DNA from: an uncultured Pelagibacteraceae bacterium
GTDB lineage: Bacteria; Pseudomonadota; Alphaproteobacteria; Pelagibacterales; Pelagibacteraceae
NCBI GenBank assembly: GCA_902634935.1
Contig: CACPMF010000003.1
Coordinates: 1 to 64,000, forward strand
Direction of reading: 5' to 3'
DNA length: 64,000 nt
The notes under the pieces are model-generated. The model saw nothing but the letters and a program-made list of their open reading frames with translations, did no database searches and was not told the origin of the DNA. Shown here one piece after another: positions 23,170-28,106 of this stretch (its first letter is position 1; each line of letters opens with the position of its first letter). Made by a program: the position numbers and the translations under genes.

Positions 23170-24129
23170 AACTGATAGAATAGGTGATTTTATTGCATCA
23201 AAAATAATAATCGAATCAATAAAAAGTGAAAATAGATTTAATAAAATAGACATTGTTTGTTCTAAATATAATAAAAAATATATTAGTCACTATAATTCGA
23301 CAAATAAATTATATATTTTAGAAAAAGGAAATTTTTTTAATTATCTTAAAAATATTAAATTATGTAGGAATTTTAATTATGATTATCTTATAATTTTAGA
23401 TGGTAAAAGAAGATCTTTAATTTTTTCTTTTTTTATAAAATCTAACTTTAAAATATTATTATTCAAAAGACAAAGTTTGTCTCTTTTAATTGCAAAATTA
23501 TTTTCTTATAATACTTTTTTTAATTCAGAAAAAACTTTTCAATTTGATAATTTCAAGAAATTATTAAAATTTCACCAATAACAAAATTCAATTACTATAA
23601 AGATTATAAATTCAAAAATAAAAAATCTTTTAATTTCAAAAATTTTTTACATTTACATTTAGATGAAAAATGGTTTGAAGGATATCACTATAACGATTAC
23701 GATTATATGGGCTTAAACTCCAAAAATGTAAATAGTTTTCTGTCTTTTTTATTACAAAAATATAAAAAGCAAATTATCATTACTTCTGGCTTCAAAAAAA
23801 TATCTATTCTAGAAGAAATTATAAAGTCAAATTTTATAAAAAAAACAAACAATTTTCATCACAAATTGTATAAATCCAAAGTTATATTTTTTAAAAATTT
23901 AGACTTTAGAGATCTGGAGCAATTTGTAAAAAAATGCAAAATATTAATTGCATGTGAAGGTGCTATCAGTCACGTATCGAATTCTCTTAATGTTCCATCA
24001 GTAATATTAATACAAAAAAATAGAAAGCAAACCGCACTTTTTTGGACTGGACATATGAATCTTATAAATCGTATTTATCGTTCTCCAATTAAAAATGTTA
24101 TAAAACAAATAAATAAAATTAAACTTTAA
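23147..24129 (+). pseudogene. Glycosyltransferase family 9 (heptosyltransferase-like), frameshifted
   Basis: Two fragments form one gene. The first (23147-23581) starts FLIFRTDRIGDFIASKIII, the typical nucleotide-sugar heptosyltransferase N-terminus. It stops early. From about 23551 a different frame is open and runs through LHLDEKWFEG (before 23707) into the second fragment, which has CEGAISHVSNSLNVPSVIL, the family's donor-binding region. A one-base slip in the AT-rich stretch near 23551-23575 would join them. It is either a broken gene or a sequencing error. The product would act on lipopolysaccharide or another surface glycan. It overlaps the convergent recombinase by 11 bp. Confidence 0.8.
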
Positions 24130-25072
24130 TTTTACTTAATGCGTTATTTTTGAAAACATTTGCTTCTCTAATATATCTTCTTACCATTTGAGTGGTTTTA
24201 TGACCTGTCATTGCCATTATGCTTCTTTCGTCAGCTCCTGACGCTGCTGCAACAGTTGCAAAACCTGACCTTAAACTATGGCCTGCAAAGTTTTTATTTT
24301 CGATACCAGCTAAATTTAAATACTTTTTCATTAATAAAACAACAGATTGGTCTGTTAGTCTTTTATCTGTTAGTGATAAGCCTTTGGCAAATCTTCTAAA
24401 AATAGGTCCAGACTTTATCTTAGATATCTCAAGCCATTTATTTAAGTTTTTAACAGGGCAATAATTTTCATTAGTGAAGTAGGGTAGCCCCTTGATCATT
24501 CCTTCACCAAATTGATCAGTTTTTGATCTTTTAATTGTAATTTTTAGACCCTCAGGCACAAATTCTAAATCCTCATAATCTATTGAAATTAGCTCTGTTC
24601 TTCTAAAACCCCCTCCAAAACCAATTAAGATTATTGACTTGTCTCTAAGTTTTTTTATTTCATCAGTTTTTTGTTCATTAATTGTATTAATTATTAATTT
24701 TAAATGATTGATTAATATAGGTTTTTTTCCTTTTTGTATGCTTCCTTTTAATCTTCTTATTCCCATTAAATTTTCAATTATGATTGGATGTTTAGTATCT
24801 AAGTAATGCCCTTTCATCTTATGAACTATGCTTATTGATACTAATCTTCGTCTTAGAGTGCTTATTTTTGAGTTTTTTGAAAGATGGGTTAGGTATAAGG
24901 AAACTATTTTTGGCTCTGTTGGTAATGGATTTAATCCATGCTTTGCACAAAAAGTCCCAAAGTCTTTAAAGTCAGATTTATAAGCTCTCAAAGTATTATT
25001 AGCTTTTGAGTTTTTAAGGTTATTTAATGTTGCTTCATGAAGCAATTTTAAGTTTGTAGTTAGTTCATTCAT
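24119..25072 (-). CDS. Tyrosine recombinase (phage/Xer-type integrase)
   Basis: The 317-residue protein has an N-terminal SAM-like core-binding domain (about residues 15-105, with NTLRAYKSDFKDF) and a C-terminal catalytic domain. All catalytic residues can be seen: Arg157 in GGGFRRTEL, Lys184 in RSKTDQFG, His265 and Arg268 in GHSLRSGF, His291 in MTGHKT and the nucleophile Tyr300 in VRRYIREA. It is therefore probably active. It resembles single-chain integrases of mobile elements more than housekeeping XerC/XerD. A 14-bp inverted repeat lies four bases upstream of its start codon, in a position to be its recombination site or operator. Confidence 0.93.
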   Translation of the reverse strand: MNELTTNLKLLHEATLNNLKNSKANNTLRAYKSDFKDFGTFCAKHGLNPLPTEPKIVSLYLTHLSKNSKISTLRRRLVSISIVHKMKGHYLDTKHPIIIENLMGIRRLKGSIQKGKKPILINHLKLIINTINEQKTDEIKKLRDKSIILIGFGGGFRRTELISIDYEDLEFVPEGLKITIKRSKTDQFGEGMIKGLPYFTNENYCPVKNLNKWLEISKIKSGPIFRRFAKGLSLTDKRLTDQSVVLLMKKYLNLAGIENKNFAGHSLRSGFATVAAASGADERSIMAMTGHKTTQMVRRYIREANVFKNNALSKIKV

Positions 25073-25075
25073 ATA

Positions 25076-25110
25076 ATTACTATTGATAACAATTAATTAT
25101 CACTAGTAAT
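25076..25110. repeat. 14-bp inverted repeat with 7-bp spacer, crossover-site-like
   Basis: ATTACTATTGATAA (25076-25089) and TTATCACTAGTAAT (25097-25110) are inverted copies with 13 of 14 positions paired, separated by the 7-base spacer CAATTAA. Two inverted recombinase arms around a 6-8 bp centre is the layout of dif and of phage attachment cores, including inner ends of the GATAA/TTATC type. It lies between the recombinase start (25072) and a small rightward ORF. It may also bind a repressor. Confidence 0.65.
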
Positions 25111-25153
25111 ATATTAAGTGATTTTAAATGTCAATAGTTTAAAATCTAGTATT

Positions 25154-25336
25154 ATGGTGTCTATGGATGGCTCAATTGAGCCTATATATTTTTTGATAAT
25201 TTCTTTTGGATTAACATTGCTTACTTATTTGGTGTTTAAGAAAAATGGCAAATCTATAGAGGTTTATTTCTTGGGTATTATGACTGTTCTGTTTTATGTT
25301 TCATATTTTATATTAATAATTGTTAAGCCAAGTTAG
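25154..25336 (+). CDS. Small two-helix membrane protein, unknown
   Basis: I do not recognise this ORF. From the ATG at 25154 it encodes 60 residues with two probable membrane helices (IYFLIISFGLTLLTYLVF and VYFLGIMTVLFYVSYFILII) joined by a short basic loop, KKNGKSIE. A GTG at 25118 or an ATG at 25163 are alternative starts; none has a clear ribosome-binding site. It lies between the recombinase-side inverted repeat and the structured RNA. It could be a real accessory gene or a chance hydrophobic ORF. Confidence 0.4.
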   Translation: MVSMDGSIEPIYFLIISFGLTLLTYLVFKKNGKSIEVYFLGIMTVLFYVSYFILIIVKPS

Positions 25337-25381
25337 TTATTAACGCTATTCACAGGTGTTAAAAAACCATTAAATTCAACG

Positions 25382-25613
25382 ATAAAGTGATACCTTTAAA
25401 ATTGCACTTGTGTTACTTTATAAATGAATTAAGAGGCAACTCTTAACTGACCATCTAGGGAAAAATCGAGAGATTCAAGCCTAGAGGGCAGAAAACTTCG
25501 CTGAGTAGCGCTAAAATAGCGAGGTGGAAGGCATGGCGGTAGCGCATACAACGACGTGCCAAAAACTACTGTTCTTTGTGCCTGAAAAGGTACAAGGTAA
25601 CAGGGTTTTCCTT
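25382..25613 (+). ncRNA. Unidentified structured RNA upstream of the alkyltransferase gene
   Basis: Six helices can be drawn: 25382-25390/25413-25421 (9 bp); 25429-25435/25440-25446 with GCAA loop; 25454-25459/25480-25485 enclosing 25464-25467/25472-25475 with GAGA loop; 25496-25502/25518-25524; 25530-25535/25555-25560; and a long hairpin 25562-25566/25605-25609 continuing through 25569-25603. Several helices use G.U pairs that would be A-C mismatches on the other strand, so the plus strand is the RNA. GC is about 50% over 25441-25560. TATAAA at 25419 could be a -10 box giving a start near 25431, in which case the first helix is not part of the RNA. The last hairpin followed by TTTTCCTTT looks like a terminator. 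I see no match to tmRNA, RNase P, SRP or 6S RNA. Confidence 0.65.
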
Positions 25614-25617
25614 TAAA

Positions 25618-25893
25618 ATGATCCTAAAAGGTACTAAATTTCAGTTGAAAGTGTGGAATTATCTAAAAACAATTCCAAAAGGACAAGTTAGAACCTATTT
25701 AGATGTCGCAAAAGCTATAAATAAGCCAAAAGCTGCTCGAGCTGTAGCAAATGCGGTTGGAAAAAACCCAAATGCACCTAAAATACCTTGTCATAGAGTT
25801 ATCAGATCTGACGGGTCCCTAGGTGGATATTCGGGTCCTGGAGGCATTAAAACCAAGAAAAAACTCTTGAAAAAAGAGGGAATTTTCGTTTAA
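25618..25893 (+). CDS. Methylated-DNA-protein cysteine methyltransferase family protein
   Basis: The 91-residue protein is the C-terminal catalytic domain of O6-alkylguanine-DNA alkyltransferases, which repair alkylated guanine by moving the alkyl group to a cysteine. It has FQLKVWNYLKTIPKGQVRTY, the helix-turn-helix with AARAVANAVGKNPNAP, and the active-site PCHRVIRSDGSLGGYSGG-like segment with cysteine present (so it is not the cysteine-less ATL type). I start at ATG 25618; an in-frame TTG at 25576 lies inside the RNA hairpin. The N-terminal Ogt domain is missing, as in many short family members. Confidence 0.88.
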   Translation: MILKGTKFQLKVWNYLKTIPKGQVRTYLDVAKAINKPKAARAVANAVGKNPNAPKIPCHRVIRSDGSLGGYSGPGGIKTKKKLLKKEGIFV

Positions 25894-26358
25894 AAGTAAG
25901 CAAAATCAACATTTTTTTAATTTTTACCCATATATAGTTGTTATATTTATATTACACCTATAGATTGCACTATATATCAATAAATCATTAAAAATGACCC
26001 CTCTATGGCTCATTAAATGCTATATTCGATAAATGCAATACTAATAGAAATTACCAGTTTTCATCTATTATTTATTTAATTTTTTCGATTTGTGTACTCT
26101 CACCTTTCTAAAATTAATACCATTAATTTATTAGATTGTTGGATTACTTTGTTTAATTTATCTTTATTCTTAAGGATTTTAATTAAGTTTTGTGATTTAT
26201 TCAGATGAAATCTCCAAATATAAATTAAAATTTTATTGATTAGATGATAGGTTAGATATATTACTATATTATATTTTACTTTAAGTAATATAAAAAAAAT
26301 AATAATTACAGTAGTTTAACATTATGTATTAATAATTTACTTTATATAAAGGTATACT
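25894..26358. other. 465-bp region with no gene seen
   Basis: This AT-rich stretch separates the convergent alkyltransferase and EamA transporter genes. I see no ORF with codon structure, tRNA or rRNA, and no copy of the tRNA-Glu 3' end or of the recombinase-side inverted repeat. There are short AT palindromes, for example TTACTTTAAGTAA near 26275-26287, without a T-run. It is the longest non-genic gap in the window and may be decayed DNA. Confidence 0.6.
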
Positions 26359-27204
26359 TTACATTTTATTAGATTGTTCTCTTCTAAAAACATAAACACC
26401 TGAAAGAATGATAATTAAAAGTCCGATAAAAGTGTACTTATCTGGAATATCAGAGAACCAAATATAGCCAATTAAAATGTTAGTAATTATCTCAAAATAA
26501 CCCAAAGGTGCCAGTTTGCTTGCATCTGAATAATTGTAAGAAAAGATAATCATGCCATGAGCAAAGGCAGCTATTAATCCCATATTTATAGCAAATAAAT
26601 ACTCAGAAAAAGTTGGTTTAACCCAAATAAAGGGTAAATATAAACTTAAAATTAGGGTTCCAACAGTGCTTGTGATTAGTAATGTTAATAAACCATTATC
26701 TGTGTTTTTTAATTTTCTAGTTACAATTAAATATAAAGCGTAACAAAAACCAGTACCTAACGCTGCAAAACTAGCCCAATTAAATTCTACAATTCCTGGT
26801 CTAATAACAATCAAAACTCCTATAAAACCTATTATAACAGCTGTCCATCTTCTTGGCCCTACCCTCTCCTTTAGAAAATAAGGTGATAAAGCAGTGACCA
26901 TTAATGGACAAATAAAAGCTATTGTTAATGCTTTAGCTAAAGAGATTATCGATATTGAATAAAAAAATAATACACTTGAAGCTAATAGTAACAATCCTCT
27001 TATAATTTGAGACTTCGAATTTTTAGAAGAAACTAAAGAATTTCTAGAAAAAATAAAAATAAATAACAAAGTGATTAGAGTACTAAAAAAAAATCTAAAC
27101 CACGTTACTTGCAATACAGGTAAAGAATAAGAAAGGTATTTTGCAATGGCATCCATAAACGGCAGAATTAGCCAAGCTGAAAGATTTATTATTGCTCCCC
27201 TCAT
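26359..27204 (-). CDS. EamA/DMT-family transporter
   Basis: The 281-residue protein has about ten membrane helices in two similar halves, the EamA arrangement of drug/metabolite transporters. The first half contains VTWFRFFFSTLITLLFIF and a mid-protein PYFLKERVGPRRWTAVIIGFIGV, a typical EamA boundary; the second half ends with GYIWFSDIPDKYTFIGLLIII. Substrate cannot be read from sequence. It overlaps the AEC transporter upstream by 4 bp and is the last gene of the long leftward operon. Confidence 0.86.
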   Translation of the reverse strand: MRGAIINLSAWLILPFMDAIAKYLSYSLPVLQVTWFRFFFSTLITLLFIFIFSRNSLVSSKNSKSQIIRGLLLLASSVLFFYSISIISLAKALTIAFICPLMVTALSPYFLKERVGPRRWTAVIIGFIGVLIVIRPGIVEFNWASFAALGTGFCYALYLIVTRKLKNTDNGLLTLLITSTVGTLILSLYLPFIWVKPTFSEYLFAINMGLIAAFAHGMIIFSYNYSDASKLAPLGYFEIITNILIGYIWFSDIPDKYTFIGLLIIILSGVYVFRREQSNKM

Positions 27205-28106
27205 AGAGGAAAATATTTTAATGATATAAAAATAACAATAGGTAAGGTTATAAATGACATTATTGTTGAGACAACTATTGTACTTGCAACACTATCCGTT
27301 ATGGTTTTTGGAGAATAAATAGCAGCTATAAGATAATTTAAAACAGCACTAGGCATTGATGCTTGAATTAAAAGTACTCCAGCTGCAAAACCAGATAAAT
27401 CAAAATAAATAATAATTAAAAAACCTATTAATGGACCTAAGATAACCCTTCCTATTGATGCAAATATTGCATTTTTTAAAGAAAAAACTTTTAATTTCGT
27501 TAAAGCAATTCCTAAGGACATAAGAATTAAAAAAATAGTTGCAAATGTTAATAACTCAGTCAAATTAATTACTACTTGTGGCATATTAATTTCAAAATAC
27601 AAAAATAGCACTGATATAACAATTGCATAAAATGGTGGACTTTTAATCAAAACTGTAAAGTTAAATTTTCTATCAGCTAAGAAAATTCCAAGTGTAAAAT
27701 GGAGTAATACAATTAAAGATGATATTGCAGCTGCAACCCCAAGTCCTTGTGCACCATAAGCAAATAAACATATAGGTATACCCATATTGCCAGTGTTAGG
27801 TAGAATTAGAGGAGGAAGTTCTCTTATTATATCCTTAGTATTCAGCATAAATAAGATGATAATTCCAAGTATAATAAAACCTAAAATTGCAAGAAGATAA
27901 AAGAAAAAATAGTCTTTAAAAATCTGAAAATTTATTCCAGTTGAGGTAATAGCGTATATTACCATCGCAGGTGTACCTATGTTAGATGCAAAATTTGTAA
28001 TAAAAGTAGTATCAAATTTCTTGTCTTTTTTACCTAAATAGTAGCCAATACCTACAATAAAAAAGACGGGAAATACTACTTCAAAAAGTTTTAAGTATAT
28101 TTCCAT
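27201..28106 (-). CDS. AEC-family (auxin efflux carrier-like) transporter
   Basis: The 301-residue membrane protein has about ten helices. It resembles bacterial AEC permeases, which move organic acids such as malate or malonate. Supporting segments are FPVFFIVGIGYYLGKK at the N-terminus, LPNTGNMGIPICLFAYG in the first half and ASMPSAVLNYLIAAIY in the second, where the paired broken helices lie. It begins at the base where the upstream metallo-hydrolase gene ends and overlaps the EamA gene by 4 bp. Confidence 0.82.
   Translation of the reverse strand: MEIYLKLFEVVFPVFFIVGIGYYLGKKDKKFDTTFITNFASNIGTPAMVIYAITSTGINFQIFKDYFFFYLLAILGFIILGIIILFMLNTKDIIRELPPLILPNTGNMGIPICLFAYGAQGLGVAAAISSLIVLLHFTLGIFLADRKFNFTVLIKSPPFYAIVISVLFLYFEINMPQVVINLTELLTFATIFLILMSLGIALTKLKVFSLKNAIFASIGRVILGPLIGFLIIIYFDLSGFAAGVLLIQASMPSAVLNYLIAAIYSPKTITDSVASTIVVSTIMSFITLPIVIFISLKYFPL

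Follow-up and report, generated by a model that had tools for sequence, protein, structure and literature searches.

The structured RNA encoded in the window, by which we mean the whole 64,000-nt stretch of DNA analysed here, is almost certainly IMES-2, a family already in Rfam whose RNAs come from ocean SAR11 bacteria; the feature is thus already known and not a new class. Our comparison of sequence copies makes it very probable that IMES-2 is a stand-alone gene. SAR11 cells, which possess few regulators, count among the most numerous in the ocean. Beyond the Rfam model, the present analysis contributes the gene anatomy, a loop-loop pairing, the different chromosomal sites of the gene and a possible link to DnaA.

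Identity and fold of the RNA

A covariance-model search of Rfam matched positions 25422-25562 on the plus strand to RF02035 (IMES-2) at 164.3 bits (E 1.1e-45), above the gathering cut-off of 54.7 bits. The match covered model positions 1-141 of 141 without truncation, and the full four-hairpin consensus structure was present. It is the sole copy in the host genome, which is 79% complete. The initial annotation, made from the letters alone, had called the RNA one of unknown class that matched no abundant class known to it, and had stated that an Infernal hit to a known family would make it known rather than new; on that reasoning, the match to RF02035 makes it a known RNA. Other parts of the annotation held up well. 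The GC content is 0.50 over 25440-25559 versus 0.20-0.30 in the flanks, the Rfam alignment confirms the GCAA and GAGA tetraloops as the loops of hairpins 1 and 2, and the plus strand that it had favoured is the strand of the RF02035 match. The plus strand from 25422 to 25615 folds at -69.6 kcal/mol (z = -5.98), a stability reached by 0 of 200 dinucleotide shuffles, whereas the minus strand folds less stably (z = -3.36).

The covariation test that had been proposed for the RNA gave a strong result, which supports a structured RNA. Among 29 divergent copies, standard pairs made up 93.8% of the pair cells, double changes occurred at 32 of the 45 pairs, and the covariation score was 0.490, compared with 0.206 for shuffled versions and no more than 0.102 for slid ones. 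The same picture was repeated in 85 distinct rows, an alignment that is model-fitted and many of whose members were found via a pattern fixing part of loop 3.

Covariation also suggests with good confidence that the loop of hairpin 3 pairs with that of hairpin 4. The register 87-92/119-124 was the best by fraction paired among all offsets tested, and this pairing is absent both from the Rfam model and from the model used to align A3. The compensatory types were GC/UA, CG/UA and GC/AU, as in GUGCUA/UAGCAC (L045), GUACUA/UAGUAC (L054), GCACU/AGUGC (L031 and L058) and UCGCUG/UAGCGA (L057); at the outer pair, a U-C mismatch was kept in one group of 18 copies. The sequences fit pairing in cis or between two molecules alike. 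Homodimerization via the palindrome of the hairpin-3 loop was rejected, as the palindrome is gone in g2 and g8 while the complementarity of loops 3 and 4 is kept.

Features of the IMES-2 locus in the window, with the basis of each assignment
Feature	Position	Strand	Basis or remark
Two abutting DnaA-box-like 9-mers (TTATTAACG CTATTCACA)	25337..25354	+	Comparison of copies
Promoter-proximal box TCAACGATAAAGTGATA, holding the -35-like GTGATA at 25387-25392	25376..25392	+	Conservation
Putative -10 hexamer TGTGTT (TnTGWT in relatives), 16 nt after the -35	25409..25414	+	Inferred from conservation
IMES-2 RNA core (RF02035 model 1-141)	25422..25562	+	Rfam match; expected 5' end ~25421-25423
Hairpin 1, GCAA (GNRA) loop	25429..25446	+	Rfam alignment, fold, pair counts
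Hairpin 2, internal loops and GAGA loop	25447..25491	+	Rfam alignment, fold, pair counts
Hairpin 3; loop 25508-25513 (GCGCUA) pairable with the hairpin 4 loop	25495..25525	+	Covariation
Hairpin 4; loop 25540-25545 (UAGCGC) pairable with the hairpin 3 loop	25530..25560	+	Covariation
Terminal hairpin and U-tract, probable intrinsic terminator	25562..25613	+	Fold, alignment
Downstream gene, MGMT-type DNA-binding domain protein (PF01035), ogt/alkyltransferase	25618..25893	+	Neighbour in this genus only; outside the RNA gene

Promoter, terminator and predicted transcript

The anatomy of the gene was derived from an alignment of 38 distinct copies together with statistics on 159 loci. The putative promoter was consistent over 149 of the 159 loci, 139 of those 149 carrying the -35-like GTGATA, and its layout, with a 16-nt spacer and a -10 element (TnTGWT) approximately 7 nt ahead of the RNA start, resembles that of sigma-70 promoters. 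A TATAAA at 25419 had been suggested as the -10 box; the conserved -10 position lies at about 25409-25414, and a -10 box at TATAAA would run into the 5' start of the RNA. A terminal hairpin with a U-tract was found in 142 of the 159 loci (median -21 kcal/mol), mostly starting approximately 184-187 nt after the RNA start; the hairpins of g2 and g8 have a wholly different sequence and retain the form. In the window, the hairpin at 25562-25609 runs into a U-rich tract, in agreement with the final hairpin and T-rich tract described previously.

Given the promoter start and the position of the terminator, the mature transcript should be approximately 190 nt long, from 25422 to about 25613, where it probably ends. 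Of the extent first assigned to the RNA (25382-25613), 25382-25421 represents promoter rather than RNA and the family core occupies 25422-25562. An ATG frame within IMES-2 is open into ogt in the window (25533-25613) and in L002 and L055; its start codon is unconserved elsewhere, and the frame is probably due to chance. A coding RNA was rejected because the ATG frame that runs into ogt in some g1 copies does not persist in other genera.

Genomic neighbourhoods and distribution

We found IMES-2 in three contexts. In g1 it lies between a TM72 or DUF2938 gene and ogt; in g5, g6 and g9, between mnmA and the convergent gene c12; and in g2, between an SNase-type nuclease gene and a convergent SRAP gene. 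The downstream gene is thus opposed to IMES-2 in two of the three contexts. Empty sites were found in relatives: ogt starts a few bases past the end of TM72 in six g1 genomes that lack the RNA (G030, G066, G072, G064, G003 and G044), ogt is present without IMES-2 in the g5 genome G038, and mnmA and c12 are adjacent in G026 and G003. The comparison indicates that IMES-2 changed position at least twice or was lost and gained several times independently.

A search of 397 Pelagibacterales genomes identified IMES-2 in 200, belonging to genera g1, g2, g5, g6, g8 and g9, with one copy per genome among the positives listed. IMES-2 was not found in the sampled Alphaproteobacteria outside the family and, within the searches made, occurred in SAR11 only. 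A broader model, R1, built from the 29 divergent copies, detected none in the complete genomes where the first search had found nothing, three matches at E 0.26-0.57 being dismissed. The patchy presence therefore looks real, although a very divergent copy may have been missed. Since approximately half of the genomes lack IMES-2, the clade can do without it.

These neighbourhoods bear on the two roles first considered for the RNA, an independent small RNA or a leader controlling the downstream gene. The former is supported by the presence of its own promoter and terminator and by its independence of neighbouring genes. A cis-acting leader or attenuator of ogt would explain why the start codon of ogt directly follows the terminator U-tract in g1; however, the three contexts and the empty sites are hard to reconcile with it, because the g5/g6/g9 and g2 copies stand beside unrelated genes with a convergent neighbour downstream, ogt occurs without IMES-2 in G038, and the g1 relatives without the RNA keep the gene order, with ogt directly behind TM72. 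No consistent association with a downstream gene was found across the contexts, and we give a leader function hardly any credence. As ogt starts directly behind the terminator in g1, read-through may affect ogt there, which would be a local consequence of this arrangement. The three sites and the empty sites in relatives would also fit an RNA borne by a phage or mobile element and moved by the tyrosine recombinase whose gene adjoins IMES-2 in g1, but the recombinase remains in genomes without IMES-2 and in g5, where the RNA sits elsewhere, and every listed genome has a single copy. Moreover, no IMES-2 was found in phage records and the pattern matches in viral contigs were not IMES-2, on which grounds a phage origin was rejected; mobilization of this kind is very improbable.

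An inverted repeat, ATTACTATTGATAA-CAATTAA-TTATCACTAGTAAT, was observed at 25076-25110, immediately upstream of the gene for the tyrosine recombinase (24119-25072, minus strand). A similar sequence lies upstream of the recombinase gene in g1 genomes without IMES-2 and in the g5 genome G038, and it could be the recombinase's own (dif-like) site. Over about 24000-28000 of the window, the GC skew and the orientation of genes both change from plus to minus near 24-26 kb. This switch adjoins the recombinase gene and resembles that at a replication terminus, an observation on the scale of the window only.

Upstream box pair, possible mode of action and known systems

Approximately 75-88 nt upstream of the IMES-2 RNA start are two 9-mers that both resemble the DnaA box TTATNCACA; the pair is absent from the Rfam model. 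All 21 representative copies show an offset of 9, most of them below the shuffle expectation, and sites resembling the consensus abut at this offset, at a conserved position, in 146 of the 159 distinct loci. Most pairs lie at one of two distances, -84 to -89 or -74 to -79, which differ by one helical turn. In the window the first box (TTATTAACG) is weak; it is stronger in relatives (TTATCCACA or TTATCCCCA with CTATTCACA), the best pairs being near the consensus, for example in L047 (TTATCCACA CTATTCACA). Some lineages fit TTATNCACA loosely only, and this consensus may not be the clade's own DnaA site. SAR11 DnaA retains the DNA-contact motif RDHTTVIHA. The upstream box was rejected as the mark of a regulon, as the other sites read lay within coding-like sequence and had no structured RNA in common.

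DnaA boxes do not readily reveal where the SAR11 replication origin lies. In the closed genomes, TTATCCACA was not clustered at an identifiable origin, and the parts of G001, G007 and G015 that were sampled showed no DnaA-box cluster. TTATCCACA was rarer than the same word reversed in the closed genomes G015, G003 and G007. IMES-2 lies approximately 140 kb from the apparent GC-skew minimum in G001 and G007, as judged from sparse sampling of a skew that follows gene orientation, and in G015, where gene orientation dominates the skew, there was no clear minimum. A location of IMES-2 at the replication origin is unsupported by the skew sampling and by the positions of TTATCCACA, both of which are weak tests.

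The abutting, conserved box pair and the retained DnaA motif lead us to propose, tentatively, that DnaA may control IMES-2 transcription. Alternatively, the same stand-alone RNA could be of a constitutive housekeeping type with no DnaA link, the 9-mer pair being part of the promoter itself or a site for a different regulator. In many lineages the boxes match imperfectly, no DnaA-box cluster was recognised elsewhere to calibrate the clade consensus, and the promoter-proximal TCAAC box near the -35 is likewise conserved, all in keeping with this alternative; yet each 9-mer independently resembles TTATNCACA, the spacing of exactly 9 nt is accompanied by a kept helical phase, and the DNA contacts of DnaA are conserved, so that we regard it as possible but doubtful. 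A further candidate is a stand-in for 6S RNA, which would bind RNA polymerase and regulate transcription in stationary or starved cells. RF00013 (6S RNA) had no match in a permissive scan of the window or in 58 Pelagibacterales genomes, closed ones included, versus 5 of 14 control genomes, Caulobacter among them; the size near 190 nt and the predicted independent transcription also suit such a role. 6S RNA is defined by a single long duplex with a central bubble, however, and IMES-2 consists of four separate short hairpins, with paired loops, and a terminator, lacking a long duplex with a large central bubble. Because of this fold, and because genomes without IMES-2 are also without detected 6S RNA, a 6S stand-in is a minor and improbable rival.

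No partner or target of IMES-2 was found. As we envisage it, the gene would be self-contained, with its own promoter, a structured RNA that acts in trans and an intrinsic terminator. Pairing of loops 3 and 4 would commit the most conserved loop bases to a compact fold rather than to a free antisense seed. With these loops paired, the conserved single strands left are short A-rich linkers and the GNRA loops, which makes a compact macromolecule-binding RNA likelier than an antisense RNA that simply base-pairs to mRNAs; binding to protein is accordingly plausible, although we advance it with reserve. The abutting DnaA-box-like sites appear to travel with the gene, and through them DnaA might tune transcription and link RNA dosage to the replication or growth state. 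Overall, a single-copy, trans-acting, stand-alone IMES-2 gene, with DnaA control and protein binding as its provisional elements, is a reasonably probable explanation. The most far-reaching version, in which a DnaA-controlled, loop-kissed RNA couples the replication state to gene expression and the gene has retained its DnaA-box promoter through two or more moves, is unlikely.

The neighbouring gene is thereby removed as a functional clue for IMES-2, and a promoter, ends and a tertiary contact are now defined at the level of prediction. Natural pairs of genomes with and without the gene are available for a partner search, and the link to the replication initiator DnaA is testable. In the accessible literature, IMES-2 was named in no paper except one on an unrelated squid genome; the original IMES-2 paper reportedly discussed abundant expression.

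Compared with RF02035, the window copy matches in full length, in sequence and secondary structure, on the plus strand, with no departure; added here are the loop 3/loop 4 pairing, promoter, terminator, upstream box pair, three contexts with empty sites, and patchy presence. Loop-loop kissing in structured RNAs is exemplified by L2-L3 of the purine riboswitch, where, as proposed for IMES-2, a short helix closes two hairpin loops and fixes a compact fold; however, IMES-2 is not a ligand-binding leader, and its hairpins are adjacent, with no three-way junction joining them. With 6S RNA, which is undetected in this order, IMES-2 shares a free-standing gene and a similar length, but it differs in its fold and gives no score match to RF00013.
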